A stretch of 64,000 nucleotides of DNA from Deltaproteobacteria bacterium. GTDB lineage: Bacteria > Bdellovibrionota > Bdellovibrionia > Bdellovibrionales > JAMPXM01. Positions 11,520-24,253 of the stretch are shown piece by piece (the stretch's first letter is position 1; every line of letters starts with the position of its first letter). The translations under genes and the position numbers were made by a program. The stretch lies in the NCBI GenBank assembly GCA_017302795.1, contig JAFLCB010000002.1, positions 1-64,000 on the forward strand, given 5' to 3'. The notes below the pieces were generated by a model. The model was not told where the DNA came from and searched no databases. It saw only the letters and a list, made by a program, of their open reading frames with translations.

Positions 11520-12551
11520 CTAGCGCTGCCTTTTCAACGCTTTGGCATCGATTTCGGCCTTCAGTTTCCGATAGGACAATAGGCGATCGTCGTTGAGATC
11601 CCCTGACTTGAGGGCTGCTTGAATAGAGCAGCCTTTTTCATTTTCATGTCGGCAGTTTGTGAACTTACATTTGAGCGCAAGTTCTTCGATGTCGCTGAAT
11701 TCATCTTCTACCCGGATCGTTCCATCGGCTAGCTGAAGCTCGCGAATTCCCGGTGAGTCCACAATGACGCCGCCACTCGGCAGCAGGAAGCTATTGCGTC
11801 CCGTGGTTGTGTGGCGACCTTTGTCGTCGTCTTGACGAATTTCCGAGACGACCTGCGTTTGCGAACTCAGAAGCGCATTCACAAGGGAAGACTTGCCAAC
11901 ACCTGAGGAGCCAAGAAAAACCGCCGTCTTGTTTGGCTGTAAGAGTTTTCGCAACTCATCTAAACCCTCTGCAAGATGTGACGAGGTCAATACGACTTCA
12001 AGATCACCAAGACGGTCGTGAACCTGCTTTATTACCTCAGGGGCCAAATTGGGTTCGAGATCAGCTTTTGTTAGCACAAGTGCGACTGCGGCCTGAGAGT
12101 CTCTCGCGGCAACGATGAAACGTTCCATGCGGCGTAAATTAAAATCTCGATTAAGACTGGTCGTCACAAATACCCAGTCCACGTTAGTCGCCATAATTTG
12201 AATATCTTCATTTTCGCCCGCAGCCTTGCGGCGAAGGCAGGTCTTTCTCGGAAGAATCGCTGTGATTTGAAAATTGGAATCTATAATGACCCAGTCACCG
12301 ACGGCCGGCTGGATCTCCGACTTTCTCCGGAGACGTCCTTTAGACTCAGCTCGCTGAAGCCCTAAAAGGGAAACAGTTTCGAGATAGTCTCGTTGTTCAG
12401 CCAGAATTCGCGCAGGTTGACCCAGCAGTGAATCTTCAACGGACGCAGACCAGGTCTTAAAGACCTCGGTCCAATCCTTCGTCCATCCCCACGGGCCAAG
12501 ATCCACCTCAAGTTTCCGGTACAAAGTTTCTGCTGATGGATTGTTATTCAA
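11520..12551 (-). CDS. rsgA: Ribosome small-subunit GTPase RsgA
   Basis: This 343-residue protein is a circularly permuted GTPase that helps late maturation of the 30S ribosomal subunit. It has an N-terminal OB-fold, then the permuted motif order: G4 TKAD (about 161), G1 GSSGVGKSS (about 213), G2 GRHTTT and G3 DSPG. A zinc-binding C-terminal motif C-x4-C-x-H-x5-C (CKFTNCRHENEKGC) completes the family pattern. All key residues are present. It converges on the DUF1402 lipoprotein gene and stands alone upstream of rsmE. Confidence 0.97.
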   Translation of the reverse strand: MNNNPSAETLYRKLEVDLGPWGWTKDWTEVFKTWSASVEDSLLGQPARILAEQRDYLETVSLLGLQRAESKGRLRRKSEIQPAVGDWVIIDSNFQITAILPRKTCLRRKAAGENEDIQIMATNVDWVFVTTSLNRDFNLRRMERFIVAARDSQAAVALVLTKADLEPNLAPEVIKQVHDRLGDLEVVLTSSHLAEGLDELRKLLQPNKTAVFLGSSGVGKSSLVNALLSSQTQVVSEIRQDDDKGRHTTTGRNSFLLPSGGVIVDSPGIRELQLADGTIRVEDEFSDIEELALKCKFTNCRHENEKGCSIQAALKSGDLNDDRLLSYRKLKAEIDAKALKRQR

Positions 12552-12635: not shown

Positions 12636-13358
12636 TCAATTTATTTTTCCACGCATAAAAGTCTCGATAGTTGGAACCGCCGTTTCCACTGATAGCACCC
12701 GGCTTCCGAGAGAAAGATTTTCGAATCCCGCCTCATTGAAAAGCTTCACTTCGTAGTCCGTAAATCCACCCTCGGGACCAATCGCGACCAGGACGGGCTT
12801 GTTGGTAAGTGGAATGGCGCCAATCGTGGTGGAAATGTCGGACGGGTGGGCTACGAATGATTTTTCGGATTCAAGCCGTGGCGCATAATCCTGCGCGAAG
12901 GGCTTAAACAGTTTATGTAAATGAACTTCAGGCATCACCGTATCTTTTGCGATCGATAATCCTTCAAGAAGCGTCGCACGCAGAATTTCGGGTTTCAGGG
13001 CCGGTGCTGACCAATAGGACTTTTCAACCCGATAAGCGTGAATAATGTGGACGGATTTAATGCCGATATTTGCAGTCGCCCGAAAAATTCGCCGCAAACT
13101 TTTCGGGCGAGGAAGTGCCAAAATTAACTCTATCGGGCTTTTGACCGGTGGGGGGTCATTGAGAGATTTAATTTCTAGCACGATCGCCGAACCCAGTTCG
13201 ACAATTTCTGCGGTTCCGACTTTGCCGTTAATTTCACCGACCCGCATCGAGTCTCCGACCTGCAATTTGAGCACGTCCTTTACGTGGCTATAACGATGGT
13301 CCGAGATAGAAAGAACATTTGCCGAAACTTCTTGTGAATCAAAAAGAAGAACATTCAT
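12636..13358 (-). CDS. rsmE: 16S rRNA m3U1498 methyltransferase RsmE
   Basis: This 240-residue SPOUT-class methyltransferase carries the RsmE signatures VAIGPEGGF (about 192-200) and LGSRVLSVETA (about 220-230) that form the trefoil-knot SAM site. It also has a PUA-like N-terminus with HRYSHVKDVLKLQVGD. RsmE methylates U1498 of 16S rRNA in the assembled 30S subunit. The family usually has VLR-x-ETA; here the Arg is Ser (VLSVETA), a mild divergence. Its ATG overlaps the msrA stop (ATGA), so it is co-translated with msrA. Confidence 0.93.
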   Translation of the reverse strand: MNVLLFDSQEVSANVLSISDHRYSHVKDVLKLQVGDSMRVGEINGKVGTAEIVELGSAIVLEIKSLNDPPPVKSPIELILALPRPKSLRRIFRATANIGIKSVHIIHAYRVEKSYWSAPALKPEILRATLLEGLSIAKDTVMPEVHLHKLFKPFAQDYAPRLESEKSFVAHPSDISTTIGAIPLTNKPVLVAIGPEGGFTDYEVKLFNEAGFENLSLGSRVLSVETAVPTIETFMRGKIN

Positions 13359-13909
13359 CCGAACACAGAGTTCAAAAGTTCCTTATCGAGGACGCTTTTC
13401 AAGGGCCGAAGATAATGGCAGGTGTAACCATTTGGTTGATTTGCCAAATAGTCTTGGTGCTCGGGTTCAGCCGGCCAGAAAGCCTCAAATTGAACGACTT
13501 CTGTCACGATTGGCGATTTCCAATTTCCACTTTGATTGACTAGCTCAATCATTTTTTTCGCCTGCGTTTTTTGGCGTTCAGAGTGGTAAAAAACCGCAGA
13601 TCGGTACTGGCTTCCGATGTCGTTCCCTTGTCGATTTAAGGTCGTGGGATCGTGCATGCGAAAAAAGAAGTCCAAAATTTCTGCAAACGAAATTTTTCGA
13701 GGCTCATATTTAATCTGGATGGATTCTGCGTGACCAGACTTCCCAGTTTTGACATCTCGATAGACAGCGTTTTTCGTTTCGCCTCCCGAGTAGCCAACCT
13801 CAGTATCCAAGATGCCCGGTAGCTTTCTGATCAGGTCTTCCATTCCCCAAAAACATCCACCGGCAAGTGTCGCGATTTCTATGCTATTTCCTGTAGTGTG
13901 ATTTTCCAT
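13355..13909 (-). CDS. msrA: Peptide methionine sulfoxide reductase MsrA
   Basis: This 184-residue enzyme reduces methionine-S-sulfoxide in proteins. The catalytic Cys lies in AGGCFWGME (Cys19), with the family motifs VGYSGG, GHAESIQI, FFFRMHDPTT and GSQYRSA in order. No recycling Cys pair is obvious except the C-terminal TCHYL. I chose the ATG at 13909, which gives the family's usual length. An upstream ATG at 14050 would add 47 residues lying opposite the next gene's signal peptide and is unlikely. It forms an operon with rsmE. Confidence 0.93.
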   Translation of the reverse strand: MENHTTGNSIEIATLAGGCFWGMEDLIRKLPGILDTEVGYSGGETKNAVYRDVKTGKSGHAESIQIKYEPRKISFAEILDFFFRMHDPTTLNRQGNDIGSQYRSAVFYHSERQKTQAKKMIELVNQSGNWKSPIVTEVVQFEAFWPAEPEHQDYLANQPNGYTCHYLRPLKSVLDKELLNSVFG

Positions 13910-14018
13910 AGAGGATGTCCTAGCAGGATGTCTCATATCGAGACAATTCATAAAACAATCCGGCTGTCGAGACGAAAACAGTTCGCACTTTTTGAGACAC
14001 GTCGGCGATACTAAAAGG

Positions 14019-15263
14019 GTGAAACTGAGCGCAATGACAGTACTTTTCATGCTCGGCGTTTTTTCCAGCCCGTCTTTCGGAGCTGCCGTGGCGGTTAATG
14101 AAGTCTTTGAGGTCGAGCCCGAAACGGCGGCACTTCAAATAGAGCGCATAGATTTCGCCTCGCAAGGACAGCCGGTTGTCGTTCGGTCGTTTTCCCGAAA
14201 TGAAAAAGAGCCCGGTCTTTTTGGCACCGGATGGTGCTCAAACATCGATGTGAATTTGATAGGCGTCGAGTCTGGTTCACCTAAAGTAATCGAGCTCCGG
14301 CAATGTGGCGCATTGAAACCTAGGACATTCCACAAAGTTTTGGACGCATGGGTGGAAGATTCAAGTTCTAGCCGAATCTTGAAAAAAGCAGACGGACGGT
14401 GGGAACTAACAGAATCTCCGCACCCGATCTTTCGACATGATGGAAAGCTTGATAGCTTTTCTACGTCAGCCAACGTTCGCTGGCATGTCCGTCGTGATTC
14501 AAGTGGTCGCCCTGAGGCGTTGGACAATTTGAAAAATCGACCTGTAAAGTTCCGAAGGAATTTGTCGGGAGATCTTGATGCAATGTTGGATTCAACCGGG
14601 AAGGTGATTTTACGATATGAGCTGGGCTTGATGCTTGTAAAAACCGATTCGAAAGACGTCACAGAAAATTTTGAGTACGATTCTGATGGAAACATTTTGC
14701 GGCTTTTGCGCAAGGAATCGAAAGACGACAGAATTCGAACTTGGCGATTTTCATATACCAACCCCGAGTGGTTGTCGGCAGTTCAATGGCCGGATGGGTG
14801 TACGTCTGCGTGGCTTTTTGATCGAAGCGGATCTGTTGCCGTCGCGCGCGAATCGAAAAATTGTCAGAAACCAATGTTGAATGAAGCTTTGAGACCTGTC
14901 CTAGCCGCGCCGGCTAAGCCGGTCGTGAATCGTCAGATCACGGCGTCGCCAGCGGCAGTAGCGCCAAACGGTGGAACGAAATCCATCGGCATTGAAATTA
15001 TTAAGCCGGGTCCTATGGGTCTTGGAAAAGAGCGAGCAAGTGTGAGCGTTAACCCAGACGGTCTACCAGTTGATTTCCGAATAGAGGGTTCTATCACGCG
15101 GCGTCTCGAGATCATTCGTGAGGCTGGGTCCGGTTCCGTGTTGCTGCTTCGCTCGGGTGAGACGGAAGTGAACTTTCGAAAAAAACCGCGCCAGTATGAA
15201 CCGAAGCAGCTTGAGCTGCTTGATGAATACGAAGAATGGATGTCGGCTTGGGGGGCGCGCTAG
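14019..15263 (+). CDS. Exported RHS/YD-repeat-like protein
   Basis: This encodes about 414 residues with a signal peptide (VLFMLGVFSSPSFGAA). Next comes a region resembling the N-terminal module of RHS proteins: VVRSFSRNEKEPGLFGTGW matches the R-x-Y-S...GxFGxGW entry motif. Imperfect YD-like repeats follow (DSTGKVILRYE, FEYDSDGNILRL, FSYTNPEWLSAV). It is much shorter than true RHS toxins and has no toxin tip or core cage; its C-terminal ~130 residues are unlike anything I know. The start is GTG at 14019 or ATG at 14034. The stop is interlocked with the convergent oxygenase gene: the shared CTAG at 15260-15263 gives both TAG codons. Confidence 0.7.
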   Translation: MKLSAMTVLFMLGVFSSPSFGAAVAVNEVFEVEPETAALQIERIDFASQGQPVVVRSFSRNEKEPGLFGTGWCSNIDVNLIGVESGSPKVIELRQCGALKPRTFHKVLDAWVEDSSSSRILKKADGRWELTESPHPIFRHDGKLDSFSTSANVRWHVRRDSSGRPEALDNLKNRPVKFRRNLSGDLDAMLDSTGKVILRYELGLMLVKTDSKDVTENFEYDSDGNILRLLRKESKDDRIRTWRFSYTNPEWLSAVQWPDGCTSAWLFDRSGSVAVARESKNCQKPMLNEALRPVLAAPAKPVVNRQITASPAAVAPNGGTKSIGIEIIKPGPMGLGKERASVSVNPDGLPVDFRIEGSITRRLEIIREAGSGSVLLLRSGETEVNFRKKPRQYEPKQLELLDEYEEWMSAWGAR

Positions 15264-16150
15264 ACCTCAATCGTCAACGGAAGCGTTAGCTGTGACGATC
15301 CGTTCGCTTTTGGAAACTTCGTTGTAAAGAAAAACTGGCTAACGTGCCGGTCAAGGACACGGTTAGCTTGCTGATCGCTGCTCGCTGCGGAGGTCATGGA
15401 GCTCGCCAATTTTTGCACCCGCGTGACGTTTCCCTTGGGGGCAATTGAAATTCGATAGGCAACTGTTCCAGTTGTTAACGGCTGGTTAAACGCAGCGAAG
15501 TTTTCATCGAACGACGCCAAAACTTTTTCTATTTGCTTTGGCCTCAGGCTGCCTTCAATGAAGGGATTCGGTGGTGTAAACCATCCATGGATGACGAGCC
15601 GACCCTCTAGCGGGTTCACCGTTCCAGATACGCGACTGACCCCGTGCGGTATTCGTGGGTCAAAAATCAAGAGACGTCCAAATTTGGGAACGATTTTTTG
15701 AACAATATTGTCTTCTTCAAATGCGAGTCCGGACCGGGCGGGGTTTTTCCAAAAATCTAGAATTTCAGGACGAACCAAAACGGTCTCTCCGCCGGTAAAC
15801 GTATTGGGCTTCAGATTCAAAGCTAGAACAAAAGCCCATGGCCCGTGAGGTCGATCGGCATGTAGACGCTGTTCGCAACCTTCAACATAGTTGCTGAGCC
15901 AAAGCGGGGAAATGCCTGAACAACCCAAAAGGTCGCGGCCGACTTTTTTGAGTCCGGATTCAATCTGAAGAAAAAGTTCTTCCGGAAAAAACAAGTCCGC
16001 AGGAGTGCGAAGATGAGTGTAGCGGCCGGGTAAGTGCCACCAATCCCAAACAAAACGGCCAGGATTGTGTCGGTCCGACATCGTGGTGTCGAAGTGATTT
16101 CTAAGTCTCCGCGCGATGGGTTTAAGCAAATCAGATTTAACCGTGGTCAT
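15260..16150 (-). CDS. Fe(II)/2OG oxygenase fused to AgmX/PglI-like C-terminal domain
   Basis: This encodes 296 residues. The first ~200 form a prolyl-4-hydroxylase-like 2-oxoglutarate dioxygenase with H97-x-D99 (LHADRP), GGETVLV (120-126) and the distal H169 with R173 (IPHGVSRV). The last ~90 residues (205-296) match the TonB-like AgmX/PglI C-terminal pattern: a helix, then TGTVAYRISIAPKGNVTRV, then KFPKANGSSQLTLPLTIE. The same domain ends the motor protein at 60803-62326, but here the CYE motif is missing. No signal peptide or membrane helix is visible. It is the last gene of a three-gene operon with a TrmB-like methyltransferase and a second oxygenase. Substrate unknown. Confidence 0.8.
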   Translation of the reverse strand: MTTVKSDLLKPIARRLRNHFDTTMSDRHNPGRFVWDWWHLPGRYTHLRTPADLFFPEELFLQIESGLKKVGRDLLGCSGISPLWLSNYVEGCEQRLHADRPHGPWAFVLALNLKPNTFTGGETVLVRPEILDFWKNPARSGLAFEEDNIVQKIVPKFGRLLIFDPRIPHGVSRVSGTVNPLEGRLVIHGWFTPPNPFIEGSLRPKQIEKVLASFDENFAAFNQPLTTGTVAYRISIAPKGNVTRVQKLASSMTSAASSDQQANRVLDRHVSQFFFTTKFPKANGSSQLTLPLTIEV

Positions 16151-16155
16151 GTCAT

Positions 16156-16815
16156 TTATTTCTTTCGAAATTGAAGTGAGAAGAGGGTTTCTTGGCGTTC
16201 AAAATACTTTTTTTCGAAATGGGAACGCGGTTTAAATTGCGGATCAGACTGTCGATTGATTTCAACTTTAGAAACCGCGTCCAAATCGAATTGTTTCGCT
16301 GCCTTGACGCCTTCAATGGCAAAATCTTTTAAATTCGTTGCAAAATGAAAGAAGGCGCCCGGTTTCATGGCGTCAACAATTCGTTGGAAGGAGGGCGCGT
16401 TGTACCAGCGCAACGAGGTACGCTTCATTTCGGGGTTGGGATAAAGCATCCAGACATCGTCGATTCGAGCGAGCGGAAAGTGGCGATCGACAAAATGATA
16501 GGCATCGCCGTGGACGGCACAGATGCATGTGTGAAGCTCGGGGTGATTGTCGAGCCGAGTCCGAAACGAGTTGAATTTGTTCTCTGTTCTTTCAACCGCT
16601 ACAATCAGGGCTTTGGGGCCCAGTTGCTCCGCGAGCTGAATTGGATGCCAGCCGACACCGCAGCCGATTTCAAGCACGATACGCCTGTCGGAATTCAAAA
16701 GTTCCGGTTGGAACAGTAAACCAGCAAATTCAAAATGAAGTTCGTCTGGATTTTCATGGGGCCTAAACTTTCTAGCGCGGACGACAGGTTGAGGCGACGC
16801 TATACTTGAACTCAT
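16156..16815 (-). CDS. TrmB-like SAM methyltransferase
   Basis: This 219-residue class I methyltransferase has motif I EIGCGVGWHP (49-58), an acidic residue in AVERTENKF (about 74) and LYPNPEMKRTSLRW (124-137). The last parallels the F-x-DPWPKKRH catalytic segment of TrmB tRNA m7G46 methyltransferases. The end (SHFEKKYFERQETLFSL) matches TrmB's 'T-x-YE-x-RG' tail loosely. The catalytic Asp of TrmB (DPWPKKRH) is replaced by Asn (YPNPEMKR), so tRNA m7G formation is uncertain and it may be a paralogue with another target. It overlaps the upstream oxygenase gene by 44 bp and precedes the second oxygenase by 5 bp. Confidence 0.75.
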   Translation of the reverse strand: MSSSIASPQPVVRARKFRPHENPDELHFEFAGLLFQPELLNSDRRIVLEIGCGVGWHPIQLAEQLGPKALIVAVERTENKFNSFRTRLDNHPELHTCICAVHGDAYHFVDRHFPLARIDDVWMLYPNPEMKRTSLRWYNAPSFQRIVDAMKPGAFFHFATNLKDFAIEGVKAAKQFDLDAVSKVEINRQSDPQFKPRSHFEKKYFERQETLFSLQFRKK

Positions 16816-17782
16816 TCAGCGCCTCTCCTTCTGTGCCTAGGCGGCTGGCGATCGGTCGGCAGAGGTTCTCGATACAGCTGGTACACACAGAACGCAATCG
16901 TTCTGATTCGATTGGCGAGGCTTTGGACGGGATTTCATAACGTCGTCCGTCTGAAGTTTGGCAGATTTCACACCGCTCACCACTGAGCCTACGACACTCC
17001 GCCTTCTCAGTAGCAACAGTTTTGCCATCACGGCCATGATGGCGCTCGTAGAAGTCGCGGATCGCGTTGACCGCAATAGCATTCAGGGGGCCCGCGCCAT
17101 TTTGGTAAAGAATGCTTACCAGATGAGTCCGCGGTGTGACTCCCGAGTTGCCAACGCGGTGAGGCCGCGACGTATTTATCAGATATCCAGAACCGTCAGC
17201 AGGTAGGTGATAGCGCCGACCCGAAATTTCGAACCAGGAATCGGGATTAGTTTCGATTGGCACATGGAGGCGGACAGAGGTTTTCCCATCGATATGGGAA
17301 TCCGGCAGTTCAAATCCTGGAAGAATCGTCATCAACCGACTTCGGTACAATCGAAACGGTAGGACTCGATGAAAAACGAAGTCAAATCGTGCACCGGCCG
17401 GATTGACGAGATCGAAAAATCGAAAGGGCGCATGAAGCTTCGCTACCTTCACGGACGACGAGTCGTAGGTTTGATCATAGCCTTCGCCATACTCGTAAGT
17501 AGCCTTTCGGTCCACGGCATCAAGATAAGTGCTTTCTGCTGGAATTGATCTATTGCCGCTTGGTACATTCAGCGCCGAGTACTGGAGGCCGATAGCTTGG
17601 TAAAGATCTTCGCCGTCTTTGCCGCTCCAGGGGAAGTTCGCCCGCACTCTTTCCAGCGCCCTCTGCAGTCGGATTATTGAAAAGCAATATGGTACACGGA
17701 CAATATCGAAGTCCAGTGTCCGACTGCGAACATAGATTTCGTTCGGGTGAAGCAGCTGGAAGGGTGTGGCGATTTTGTTCAT
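16772..17782 (-). CDS. Asp/Asn-hydroxylase-like Fe(II)/2OG oxygenase with Cys-rich tail
   Basis: This encodes 336 residues. The core matches the aspartyl/asparaginyl beta-hydroxylase fold: H163-x-D165 (DSHIDG), then RLHVPIETN (171-179), LINTSRPHRVGNSG with distal H208, and R218 in PRTHLV for 2-oxoglutarate. The C-terminal ~75 residues hold Cys pairs C-x2-C (CEIC, 271-274) and C-x2-C-x4-C (CTSCIENLC, 300-308), suggesting a zinc-binding module not usual in this family. No signal peptide is seen. It is the first gene of the oxygenase-methyltransferase-oxygenase operon. Substrate unknown. Confidence 0.78.
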   Translation of the reverse strand: MNKIATPFQLLHPNEIYVRSRTLDFDIVRVPYCFSIIRLQRALERVRANFPWSGKDGEDLYQAIGLQYSALNVPSGNRSIPAESTYLDAVDRKATYEYGEGYDQTYDSSSVKVAKLHAPFRFFDLVNPAGARFDFVFHRVLPFRLYRSRLMTILPGFELPDSHIDGKTSVRLHVPIETNPDSWFEISGRRYHLPADGSGYLINTSRPHRVGNSGVTPRTHLVSILYQNGAGPLNAIAVNAIRDFYERHHGRDGKTVATEKAECRRLSGERCEICQTSDGRRYEIPSKASPIESERLRSVCTSCIENLCRPIASRLGTEGEALNEFKYSVASTCRPR

Positions 17783-17845: not shown

Positions 17846-18664
17846 ATGGCGCGTAAAACAACCCTCGACCCGCTTGCAAGTCAACGGGGCGGTCTGGCTG
17901 GAGCTTTTGAAACTCTCATGCGGCGATTTAAAACGTTGCTGCACATTGCATTGATCGTCCCGCTCTACCTTGTAGGTTGTGCGATTATTGGTCTTGCCGT
18001 GGCTCCGGGCGTTCTCCTCGTCGCCCTCGCTTCGCGGCTGAATCAACCTATAGACGGGGCGCTTGGTTTGTTCTTGCAAGCATGGCTTGTAGGTGCGGCT
18101 ATTGTAGCGGCGATATTTTTGAGCGGCTTCCTGCTGGTGTTGATCTTACCTCTAACAAACTTCGTGCTTCTGTGGGGCGGTAAGCTTAAGCCTTGGCGAG
18201 GTCCGTACTATTCTTTAGAAGCAATTCGGTGGTACATTCATAATGGCATCACGTATGTGCTCCGCTACACACTTCTTGAGTTTTTTACTCCGTCTCCAAT
18301 TGCAGTGCTCTTTTATCGATTGATGGGAATGAAAATTGGCCGCGGCACGGTGATTAATAGTACAGCGTTGTCAGATCCCAGTTTAGTTTCTATCGGCGAA
18401 AAGGTGACCATCGGCGGTTCTGTGACGATCGTTGCCCATTATGGACAAGCGGGTTTCCTAATTTTAGCGCCGGTCGTTATTGGCGATGGTGCGACAATTG
18501 GTTTGCGCGCATCGATTATGGGTGGCGCTAAAATCGGAAGCAATGCCCGAGTTATGGCGCATTCCGTAGTGTTGCCTAAAGCCGAAATTCCCGAGGGTGA
18601 AATCTGGGGCGGCGTGCCCGCCGTTAAATTGGAATCCGCGAAAGAAGACCGCGCAGCCCGCTAG
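17846..18664 (+). CDS. Membrane hexapeptide-repeat (left-handed beta-helix) protein
   Basis: This encodes 272 residues. Two or three membrane helices fill about residues 25-115 (LIVPLYLVGCAIIGLAVAPG; IVAAIFLSGFLLVLILPL). A left-handed beta-helix of the hexapeptide acyltransferase type follows (IGRGTVINSTALSD, IGEKVTIGGSVTI, IGDGATIGLRASIMG, IGSNARVMAHS). The layout matches the C-terminal unit of Pls/PosA-type peptide synthetases and related membrane proteins. Acyl transfer is possible, but the catalytic His of the CAT-like group is not obvious. It is divergent from the oxygenase operon (63-bp gap). Its stop is interlocked with the convergent FliG-like gene through CTAG (18661-18664). Confidence 0.72.
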   Translation: MARKTTLDPLASQRGGLAGAFETLMRRFKTLLHIALIVPLYLVGCAIIGLAVAPGVLLVALASRLNQPIDGALGLFLQAWLVGAAIVAAIFLSGFLLVLILPLTNFVLLWGGKLKPWRGPYYSLEAIRWYIHNGITYVLRYTLLEFFTPSPIAVLFYRLMGMKIGRGTVINSTALSDPSLVSIGEKVTIGGSVTIVAHYGQAGFLILAPVVIGDGATIGLRASIMGGAKIGSNARVMAHSVVLPKAEIPEGEIWGGVPAVKLESAKEDRAAR

Positions 18665-19434
18665 GCGATTTTTTTAATTTGCTCGAGTTTATCTTGAGCC
18701 ACCGTCAATTCCTGACGAAGAGTTCCGTTCTCCGCCTGAAGTGTAGCCACTCTTTTTCTTAGCCCGTTAAGCTCGGCCTCGACTTCAGACGATACTTTTT
18801 GATCTGCATTTGCCCACGCTTTTGCATCCAGTGAAGTCACCACTTGCAAGGTGGGCGGCGACGAAGGTGCGGTCGGTATTGCGCCTTGGGCTGACGCAGA
18901 AACTTGTTTAGCGCCAAAGCTTTCGCTGAACTCCGGAACGCCAATGATTGTTTTCCCCTGTTTCAATCGATCTTCAATGTCATTATCGACATGCATTAGC
19001 GGATCGATTTTATCAAATCTCAAAGTTCCGTCTTGTGCCAATCTTCGTACCGTTTCGTACATCTTGTTAAATGAAGTTGCCACATCGGCTGCGCCAGGTT
19101 TGTTGGAACTTTCATAAATATCTAATACTTTGCGTCTCTTTATAATGCCTAATGTTCTCAACAACCGCTCTCGCTGTTCAGCGGTGACCCATGACAGAAT
19201 CGCAGCAATATTGATGTCCAACATCGAACCCGTAACTTCTGAAATTGCCGAGTCTGACCAGGTTAAGATCCGATTGAGATCGATGATCTTCGCAGACAGA
19301 GCATCAGCCCACCGGGGGTCCTCTTGCCGAATGATTTCCAGAAAGCGTTCTTGTTTTTGTGGACTGCTTGTTTCCAAGAGGTTGAGCAATTGAATAAAGC
19401 CGCCCGCTTTTTTGTATCGGTCTAACATTGCCAT
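18661..19434 (-). CDS. FliG-like protein with C-terminal coiled coil
   Basis: This encodes 257 residues. The first ~150 are helical and resemble the middle/C-terminal armadillo-like domains of FliG, the flagellar switch protein: FIQLLNLLETSSPQKQERFLE, then DPRWADALSAKIIDLNRIL, then ERLLRTLGIIKRRKVLDIYE. A low-complexity Ala/Pro/Ser linker leads to a C-terminal coiled coil (about 218-257, ELNGLRKRVATLQAENGTLR). No flagellar genes are near, so it is probably a FliG-domain adaptor rather than the main switch protein. The start is ATG at 19434 or 19428. The resemblance is by eye and moderate. Confidence 0.55.
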   Translation of the reverse strand: MAMLDRYKKAGGFIQLLNLLETSSPQKQERFLEIIRQEDPRWADALSAKIIDLNRILTWSDSAISEVTGSMLDINIAAILSWVTAEQRERLLRTLGIIKRRKVLDIYESSNKPGAADVATSFNKMYETVRRLAQDGTLRFDKIDPLMHVDNDIEDRLKQGKTIIGVPEFSESFGAKQVSASAQGAIPTAPSSPPTLQVVTSLDAKAWANADQKVSSEVEAELNGLRKRVATLQAENGTLRQELTVAQDKLEQIKKIA

Positions 19435-22109: not shown

Positions 22110-23576
22110 ATGAAAAACACCTATATTGGTTCGCAAAGATGTGTGGCGTCGAAAAGCAACTGGCTCTTGGGGTTAGTACTGGTGATCGGGGCGTTTGTGC
22201 CCGGGGCTGAGGCTCAAGAGCGACAGAATACAAAGCGAAAGTTGTTGTTTCCTAGCGGCACAGAGGTTGTGGCAGGTAAAAGCTCGTTACCGGATCCTCT
22301 GCGGCCGTATGATTCGCTGATCGACACAAAGTTCGCCGAGAAATCGCCGGTCAAACAAACAACGGGATGCGATAAGCTCGAGGTTTGGCAGCCAGTTGTC
22401 GTTCAAGTCGAACAATGGCGCGCGATTGCTCCATTCATCCCCACGGGGTATTCCGAAGTCGGCGTTTTGGCTGTTCAGGCTAGCACGAACTGCGTGAAAG
22501 TCGGTCATCCTATGCGAATTTCGAATTTGCGCTTACCGGCCGGAATCGCCGTAGAGTTGGGTTGGTTTTTTCCAACGGCGATGGTCGGGCGCAGAAAAGA
22601 AATGGAAAATCAAGAAACGCGATTGCTCTTTAAGGCAGGTCTTCCTGCTGACACACAAGACGTTGTATTTGTCACAGGTCGAGTAATTGCGACCTTCCCG
22701 TCCTTGTTTGCATTAAACGTATCACGAATGGTCGGTGCACGTTTCATCAGCCGAGAGCAAATCGAAACAGCGATCCGCGATGGCACCCAGATTATAGATG
22801 TCCGATCGAAAGTCGCTTATTCTCAATTTAAAATCAAAGGCTCTGTCAATATTCCGTATACGACCGGTCCGCGATTTCGCTTTTATGAAGAATACGCTGA
22901 TTACGTGAAGTCCGGCGATGCGTTTGATGTGCGTCGTGTACAAGTGGAAAAAGAGAAGCCACTCGTCATCATTGGTAACTTCGGCGACCACAATATCTAC
23001 CGTGCAGCTGTAGTATTGCGATCTGAAGGTTGGAAGAACGTATTGGTTTTTTGGGAAGGCATGCAGTATTTTACCGGAATGGTTTGGACGCCACCAGCGC
23101 GATCTGAGTTGATCCGTATTGTTGATGGTTATCAAGTGGCGAAAATGCTGGCTGACCGGACGAAAAAGCCGGTCGTGATTGATGTGCGGCGAGCACAGCA
23201 CTTCGCAGTCGGCACTATTAAGGATGCGTATACCCACGAGTATTTTGAGCGCGATGATCTTTATTATCGTGTTCGGGGATTGAATGGGGCAATGCTAAAA
23301 GAATATGGGGAATGGGCATCTATTCCTCCCAAGATTGCTGCAGGTGTGCCGATTATTGTGGTCGGATATCACGAAAGAGATTGGCGCGGCTACAAAGCGG
23401 CCCTGACTATTCGTCACTATGGGTATGGGGATGTCAGTTGGTACCGTGGAGGATTCGCTGATTGGCTTAGTCTAAAGATCTTAGACCCCGTATTGTTTCC
23501 TACTGTGAGTTATTCGGCGGCAGACATCGCAAAATTTTTAAAGGACCCGTCCTATAGGGGAGGACCGAATAAATGA
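22110..23576 (+). CDS. Exported protein with two degenerate rhodanese domains
   Basis: This encodes 488 residues with a signal peptide (hydrophobic about 18-32, ending PGAEAQ), an N-terminal region of ~170 residues with two Cys (TTGCDKLEVW, STNCVKVG) and two rhodanese-like domains (about 208-325 and 335-470; IIDVRSKVAYSQFKIKGSVN and VIDVRRAQHFAVGTIKDAY). In both, the active-site Cys loop is replaced (IIGNFGDHNIYRA; VVGYHERDWRGYK), so sulfur transfer is not expected; binding or scaffolding is more likely. Its stop overlaps the next gene's start (ATGA), coupling it to an Asp-hydroxylase-like oxygenase. Confidence 0.82.
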   Translation: MKNTYIGSQRCVASKSNWLLGLVLVIGAFVPGAEAQERQNTKRKLLFPSGTEVVAGKSSLPDPLRPYDSLIDTKFAEKSPVKQTTGCDKLEVWQPVVVQVEQWRAIAPFIPTGYSEVGVLAVQASTNCVKVGHPMRISNLRLPAGIAVELGWFFPTAMVGRRKEMENQETRLLFKAGLPADTQDVVFVTGRVIATFPSLFALNVSRMVGARFISREQIETAIRDGTQIIDVRSKVAYSQFKIKGSVNIPYTTGPRFRFYEEYADYVKSGDAFDVRRVQVEKEKPLVIIGNFGDHNIYRAAVVLRSEGWKNVLVFWEGMQYFTGMVWTPPARSELIRIVDGYQVAKMLADRTKKPVVIDVRRAQHFAVGTIKDAYTHEYFERDDLYYRVRGLNGAMLKEYGEWASIPPKIAAGVPIIVVGYHERDWRGYKAALTIRHYGYGDVSWYRGGFADWLSLKILDPVLFPTVSYSAADIAKFLKDPSYRGGPNK

Positions 23577-24253
23577 GCATCGATTGGGAAAAAGTCCGAG
23601 AAATCAATTCGAGGCGCCTTGGGCTTTTTCAGCAATTGCACGTTTACGGAGACGTCATTCCCTTGCGTATGAAGATCGATCTGGAGCAAGTCGATCGCGA
23701 GCTAGCTCCCCTTGATAGTAATTGGGTTCAGTACAATCCCGATAAGTCTAGTAATCCGCGACAGGGTCTTTCTGTAACTTCGCTGGATGGCGGAATGTCG
23801 GGAGTTCCAGATTTATTTTCGATTTATGAATGGTCAAAGCAGACTGGAAGAATCGTTTCAGAGCAAGATTTCAATGTGCCGACGGAGGCCTACAAAGCCT
23901 GCAGCTCGATTCATTCATTGTTTGAGCCTTTTATGCCAAATGTCGGTCGGTGTCGCTTCGTTCGCTTTCAACCAGGTGGACATTTTCCGCCGCATCGAGA
24001 TGGCTCTGTGAACTTTCAGATTCCGGACTACTTTCGAATTTTGGTTCCACTTGGACGAACAGGAGCCGATCGGTTTCACTTCGTGTATGACGGCCGCCTA
24101 GTGGAGTATGAACCTGGCCGTCCCTATTTGTTCAACGCGCTGAAGACCCACTCGGTCGTCAGCTTCGAAAAAGATGCTCTCACGTTGGCTCTAAGCGTAG
24201 CGCTGACTCAAGAAACTGTCGCGAAAGCTGTGGATTTCTTTAAAATATATTAA
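23573..24253 (+). CDS. Asp/Asn-hydroxylase-like Fe(II)/2OG oxygenase
   Basis: This encodes 226 residues without a signal peptide. The oxygenase core shows H141-x-D143 (PPHRDG), R155 in YFRILVPLG, a FHFVYDGRLVEYEPG strand pair and the distal H193 (LKTHSVVSF), which matches the aspartyl/asparaginyl hydroxylase-like family. A peptide or amino-acid substrate is plausible but not shown. It is translationally coupled (ATGA) to the exported rhodanese-like protein, although that partner is predicted to leave the cytoplasm. Its stop is interlocked with the convergent MFS gene through TTAA (24250-24253). Confidence 0.8.
   Translation: MSIDWEKVREINSRRLGLFQQLHVYGDVIPLRMKIDLEQVDRELAPLDSNWVQYNPDKSSNPRQGLSVTSLDGGMSGVPDLFSIYEWSKQTGRIVSEQDFNVPTEAYKACSSIHSLFEPFMPNVGRCRFVRFQPGGHFPPHRDGSVNFQIPDYFRILVPLGRTGADRFHFVYDGRLVEYEPGRPYLFNALKTHSVVSFEKDALTLALSVALTQETVAKAVDFFKIY

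Follow-up and report, generated by a model that had tools for sequence, protein, structure and literature searches.

Does a compact operon in which two Fe(II)/2OG oxygenases flank a TrmB-like methyltransferase carry out successive steps on one target, as a sequence-only reading of this locus had proposed, or do its genes serve separate tasks? The operon lies in a genome of the Bdellovibrionota, a group that includes predatory bacteria, and its carriers among the relatives are Bdellovibrionota/Bdellovibrionales assemblies, most of them assembled from metagenomes. We refer to the genome of origin as G000, and to the whole stretch of DNA that was analysed (64,000 nucleotides) as the window. The features on which the argument turns are as follows:

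OxyA, 16772..17782, minus strand, 336 aa: Asp/Asn-beta-hydroxylase-like 2OG oxygenase with a C-terminal Cys4 (CxxC...CxxC) extension
OxyA tail, 16874..16972, minus strand: C271xxC274 ... C300xxC303, putatively zinc-binding
MT, 16156..16815, minus strand, 219 aa: TrmB-fold SAM methyltransferase of a double-Asn (YPNP / A[TS]N) paralog family
MT Asn127, 16435..16437, minus strand: counterpart of the catalytic TrmB Asp (D144 in E. coli); 26/26 MTs have Asn here, 10/10 TrmBs have Asp
MT Asn161, 16333..16335, minus strand: aligned to the Asp of the TrmB T-D motif (E. coli D180); Asn in 26/26 MTs, Asp in 10/10 TrmBs
OxyB, 15260..16150, minus strand, 296 aa: 2OG oxygenase of the P4H superfamily
OxyB C-terminal domain, 15263..15487, minus strand: divergent AgmX/PglI-TonB_C-like, about residues 222-296 (the last 75 or so)
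RHS-like ORF, 13992..15263, plus strand: signal-like N-terminus; lies between OxyB and msrA, against the operon direction
msrA-like gene, 13355..14050, minus strand: methionine sulfoxide reductase, named from PF01625 in the G002 ortholog and from gene order
rsmE-like gene, 12636..13358, minus strand: RNA methyltransferase, PF04452 in the window, also Pfam-supported in G002
rsgA-like gene, 11520..12551, minus strand: ribosome-assembly GTPase, named from sequence; order kept in 6 genomes

The coordinates of the window's open reading frames confirm the tightly packed minus-strand arrangement OxyA-MT-OxyB as it had been described, with a 44-bp overlap between OxyA and MT (16772-16815) and a 5-bp gap from MT to OxyB. 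Because an AAGGAG, which makes a good ribosome-binding site, sits about 8 nt 5' of the ATG at 16815, the MT start at this position is credible; a promoter scan gave a result near chance. That two 2OG oxygenases of different kinds flank a TrmB-like methyltransferase is likewise borne out by Pfam, with matches to Asp_Arg_Hydrox (weak), Methyltransf_4 and 2OG-FeII_Oxy_3, respectively. Elsewhere in the window, a short stand-alone protein (18661-19434, minus strand) has a coiled coil after its FliG C-terminal domain.

Within the window's family, OxyB is present in 13 of 13 genomes and MT in 12 of 13. In 10 of the 12 inspected family genomes (G000-G006, G009, G011 and G012), OxyB is the next gene after MT and has its orientation, so the possibility, raised against the sequence-only reading, that the genes would be unlinked in all relatives did not arise. 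The two genes mostly overlap or lie 0-5 bp apart in the ten linked genomes (maximum 76 bp); gene calls were mechanical, and some of the overlaps in relatives depend on mechanically chosen ORF starts. Other ORFs separate MT from OxyB in G007, and MT went undetected in G010, an 82%-complete assembly with OxyB. Since MT and OxyB proteins across the family share only 31-60% identity with the window copies, their linkage is old and not a matter of chance. The conserved unit is the MT-OxyB pair rather than the OxyA-MT-OxyB trio.

The third gene has a far narrower distribution: full-length OxyA occurs only in G000, G002 and G004, i.e., in three genomes of one genus. Because G003, which stands next to G004 on the OxyB tree, has no OxyA, this distribution needs at least two changes on that tree (OxyA gained twice, or gained once and lost once). 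OxyA, restricted and patchy as it is, is therefore an accessory, an occasional extra of the operon. Its match to Asp_Arg_Hydrox (PF05118) is weak and lies below the cut-off (E = 0.0021; 18.4 bits vs. 22.6), and it matches the beta-hydroxylase of PDB entry 7v4f at E = 3e-4. The HxD..H..R residues (H163, D165, H208 and R218) are invariant in the window protein and two orthologs (n = 3); so are the four cysteines of the extra Cys-rich tail, which had been pointed out from the sequence. A further protein of 226 aa, separate from OxyA and likewise Asp_Arg_Hydrox-like (E = 1.4e-4, just below the cut-off), is encoded at 23573-24253 on the plus strand, preceded by a rhodanese-domain gene (22110-23576) with which it overlaps by 4 bp.

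How far MT and OxyB depend on each other can be judged from 291 genomes of the phylum, for which gene sets were compiled by hand. Each gene occurs in 65 of these genomes, and both occur together in 24, vs. 14.5 expected (p = 0.0017 by a Fisher test that ignores kinship); with the window's family left out, 19 genomes have both, vs. 12.6 expected (p = 0.02, again ignoring kinship). The co-occurrence analysis that the sequence-only reading had called for thus yielded a weak positive association, but it also found OxyB without MT in 41 of 65 OxyB genomes. Conversely, MT is present without OxyB in 41 of 65 MT genomes, and MT occurs without a linked OxyB in, for example, Acinetobacter. A further 32 OxyB genomes, mostly of Myxococcota and Planctomycetota, contained no MT-level match, the best hit (83 bits) being in the range of true TrmBs. 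Assemblies outside the family that have both genes carry them on separate contigs, with a single exception. In UBA4573 (L169/G146:C65:53250-54782), outside the window's class, the two genes are adjacent but convergent, possibly an independent linkage.

These distributions bear directly on the view that MT and OxyB catalyse successive steps on a shared target (a protein side chain might, e.g., be hydroxylated first and O-methylated afterwards), OxyA supplying a third step. Translational coupling and the conserved adjacency of the pair within the family are what such a pathway would lead one to expect, and the weak excess of genomes with both genes agrees with it; yet OxyB occurs alone in most of its phylum genomes and in all 32 of the further ones, MT is as often without OxyB, nearly all other genomes that carry both keep them on different contigs, OxyA is confined to its three genomes, and the structures closest to MT are RNA enzymes, all of which makes a sequential pathway improbable. 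Because MT and OxyB each work alone in many lineages, the data argue against a reaction in which one residue must pass through both enzymes, and a shared target is not required. With OxyA in so few genomes and its partners so often apart, the proposal of three enzymes on one target is not supported.

What, then, does MT do? It matches Methyltransf_4 (PF02390) at E = 1.1e-17 and does not reach the cut-off of the curated TrmB model TIGR00091 (50.9 bits vs. 112.65). We aligned 26 MTs with 10 true TrmBs, including the window genome's own; no E. coli sequence was part of this alignment, and the E. coli numbers D144, R155, D180, T217 and E220 are those that we take its columns to bear, as placed from the known E. 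coli motif. The P-D-P-W-P-K of TrmB aligns with P-N-P-x-P-K of the MT family (P-N-P-E-M-K in the window MT). The earlier inference that the catalytic Asp is lost was correct, but the register then given (YPNPEMKR in place of DPWPKKRH) was off by two, such that the Asp corresponds to Asn127 and not to Tyr; the second Asp-to-Asn change, N161, was absent from that reading, as was the place of MT in a defined paralog family. MT keeps the SAM motif and, across the 26 members, largely retains the equivalents of T217, E220 and R155; many MTs have lost part of the H151 region. Its AF2 model (pLDDT 87, with a disordered N-terminus) has METTL1 and TrmB as first structural matches. A true TrmB, with both aspartates, is encoded elsewhere in the window genome (G000:C1:102081-102584). 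The family-invariant motif and the open frame rule out a decayed TrmB pseudogene, and the alignment indicates that MT is a separate TrmB paralog family.

In vitro, E. coli TrmB is inactive with the D144A mutation and retains less than 10% of its activity with D180A; the role proposed for D180 is to hold the N1 proton of G46 (PMC10130221). Such effects weigh on the alternative that MT is still an m7G methyltransferase, acting on another RNA or position with Asn in place of Asp, and that OxyB is linked to it for expression only. The fold and the conserved Thr, Glu and Arg are in keeping with this alternative; however, with Asn at both of these positions in every MT, an H151 region that is often truncated, and a genome already furnished with a D/D TrmB, we consider it unlikely.

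The MT family extends to Acinetobacter baumannii, where a protein that is 42% identical and shares the YPNP and ASN motifs is annotated merely as a 'SAM-dependent methyltransferase'. No NCBIfam model names the family: scans of its members return TrmB models, with the window MT far below their cut-offs, and a literature search found no paper on TrmB paralogs of this kind. In A. baumannii CP035931.1 (L261, 4995-6822), there is an 11-bp overlap between the MT homolog and the gene for a TIGR03862 flavoprotein, a pairing that may hint at the function of MT; TIGR03862 has, we presume, a tie to rRNA dihydrouridine synthesis, which a literature search did not confirm. Among MT neighbours outside the window's family, a MIDAS-family adhesin and response regulators recur, and since these tell little, we dropped the attempt to read MT function from them. 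A third TrmB-like group, in other families of the phylum, has YPCPWPK (catalytic Asp to Cys) and keeps the second Asp; it comprises L273-L277 (G089, G110, G083, G061 and G107), in which it is the only TrmB-like match counted.

OxyB matches 2OG-FeII_Oxy_3 (PF13640; E = 1.8e-9), and its homologs (n = 68; Bdellovibrionota, Myxococcota and Planctomycetota assemblies, assigned by record titles) are 35-59% identical to the window protein across these three phyla. H97-x-D99, H169 and R184 are invariant in all 68, among 34 invariant columns in total. With a predicted DSBH fold, HxD..H and a 2OG-binding Arg, OxyB has the hallmarks of the P4H superfamily, and its AF2 model (pLDDT 94) retrieves PiuC, PPHD, OGFOD1/Tpa1 and PHD2 in Foldseek. 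The sequence-only reading did not include the AgmX/TonB_C-like C-terminus: NF033768 is matched by 48 of the 68 homologs at E<=0.1 (best 1.5e-5), and the OxyB family profile also has weak matches, C-terminal-only, in further proteins that are mostly larger. The homologs in G028:C5, G097:C1 and G264:C18 (265-275 aa) have two separate profile matches per frame, the middle part missing. A literature search found no paper on Bdellovibrio 2OG oxygenases.

Outside the window's family, OxyB adjoins varied genes (FAA hydrolase with LysR, acyl-CoA dehydrogenase, two-component genes and pirin), and no neighbour was found to recur across phyla; at L147 the neighbour is a fatty-acid desaturase. Such metabolic surroundings, together with the place of PiuC among the best fold matches, would suit a metabolic oxygenase acting on an amino acid, a lipid or an iron-related small molecule, for which the rsmE/rsgA neighbourhood described below would be an accident. 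The lack of any recurring neighbour nevertheless tells against a metabolic role as well, and a protein substrate accords better with the strong conservation over three phyla and with the interaction-like tail fused to the enzyme, so that we hold a metabolic OxyB to be possible but rather doubtful.

Downstream of OxyB, the order msrA-rsmE-rsgA is kept in six genomes of two genera (G000-G004 and G012). Of these same-strand genes, and of the 30S-maturation context that they supply, the sequence-only reading made no mention. The series runs uninterrupted on one strand in G001 and G003, with an OxyB-msrA gap of 3-53 bp; in G000, G002, G004 and G012 it includes an opposite-strand ORF somewhere within. 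In the window it is the RHS-like ORF, set between OxyB and msrA; G002 and G012 have homologs at that place, and G001, G003 and G004 have none there. In addition, rsmE is directly 3' of OxyB in G009, and a partial rsmE lies two genes on in G011. RsmE is the 16S rRNA m3U1498 methyltransferase and RsgA a 30S assembly GTPase, both of them ribosome-maturation proteins. Because OxyB elsewhere adjoins unrelated genes, this context is family-limited and could be incidental.

A pair beside ribosome-maturation genes probably signifies a new chemical mark on the protein-making machinery. The account that we favour, while holding it tentatively, is that MT and OxyB are a co-expressed pair that modifies the translation apparatus in parallel, OxyA being dispensable; the substrates, the chemistry at the target and the role in translation are what we infer. 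OxyB would be a cytoplasmic P4H-type Fe(II)/2OG oxygenase that docks via its AgmX/TonB_C-like tail and hydroxylates a side chain, most likely prolyl, of a conserved protein, in the manner of PPHD or OGFOD1 (an analogy of mode, not of family membership). MT would be a TrmB-fold RNA methyltransferase which, with the guanine-holding and the catalytic Asp both changed to Asn, would put its methyl group on a base or site that is not m7G46. Both enzymes would work on the same machinery without acting successively on one residue, the target most likely being the 30S subunit or a factor working with it, and OxyA would be a later addition in one genus.

The linkage of MT and OxyB, the msrA-rsmE-rsgA order, the fold matches of the OxyB and MT models (folds predicted at high confidence), the invariant active-site residues of OxyB, N127/N161 and the separate TrmB support this translation-apparatus account. 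Counting against it are the activity of P4H-fold enzymes on small molecules and non-ribosomal proteins, the unrelated neighbours of OxyB outside the family, the position of the Acinetobacter MT beside a flavoprotein gene, and G010, with its OxyB and no detected MT. In a more specific version, to which we give somewhat less credence, the genes form a ribosome-modification operon: OxyB, docking through its AgmX-like tail, would represent a new class of P4H-type oxygenase in bacteria that acts on ribosomes or translation factors, and beside it would work a TrmB paralog re-aimed by its two Asp-to-Asn changes to a mark other than m7G46. Two further candidates were rejected: a RiPP or peptide-tailoring cluster, since nothing resembling a precursor ORF was noticed adjacent to the operon, nor did export genes recur around MT-OxyB; and a defence system, as PADLOC matched generic domains only and OxyB had no match in phages or plasmids.

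The analysis defines two conserved, unnamed enzyme families, a TrmB paralog (MT) and a P4H-type oxygenase spanning three phyla (OxyB), both of which appear to be uncharacterised. With both base-handling aspartates swapped throughout the family, MT offers a natural experiment on changes of specificity in RNA methyltransferases. Gammaproteobacteria such as Acinetobacter have the family too and, as far as we could find, it is unstudied there. The rsmE/rsgA context predicts a modified 30S component or translation factor, which mass spectrometry can test.

Set against known systems, MT shares with TrmB/METTL1 (tRNA m7G46) the fold, the SAM motif, the T-x-F-E motif and the Arg after the catalytic loop; it differs in having Asn at the D144 and D180 equivalents, in coexisting with a true TrmB, in replacing the Trp after DP by Glu, Tyr or Asn across the family, and in the frequently shortened H151 region. 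OxyA resembles the AspH-type Asp/Asn beta-hydroxylases (PF05118) in its HxD..H..R and its match to 7v4f, whereas it stays below the Pfam cut-off and adds the Cys4 tail. To MADS Mad2 and a CRISPR-associated 2OG protein (PADLOC models) the likeness is one of generic domains, confined to the methyltransferase or oxygenase domain, and no other genes of these systems were noticed. PiuC-type 2OG oxygenases are among the best Foldseek matches of OxyB, but at 13-15% identity, and no iron-uptake genes were noticed beside OxyB. With PPHD, the EF-Tu prolyl hydroxylase that has also been solved with EF-Tu, and with OGFOD1/Tpa1, which hydroxylate uS12 at a prolyl residue (PMC4396695), OxyB has in common the P4H-type DSBH fold and HxD..H..R, although identity in structural alignment is 11-20%; and unlike OGFOD1/Tpa1, with their tandem DSBH architecture, OxyB has an AgmX/TonB_C-like tail as its second part in place of a second DSBH.
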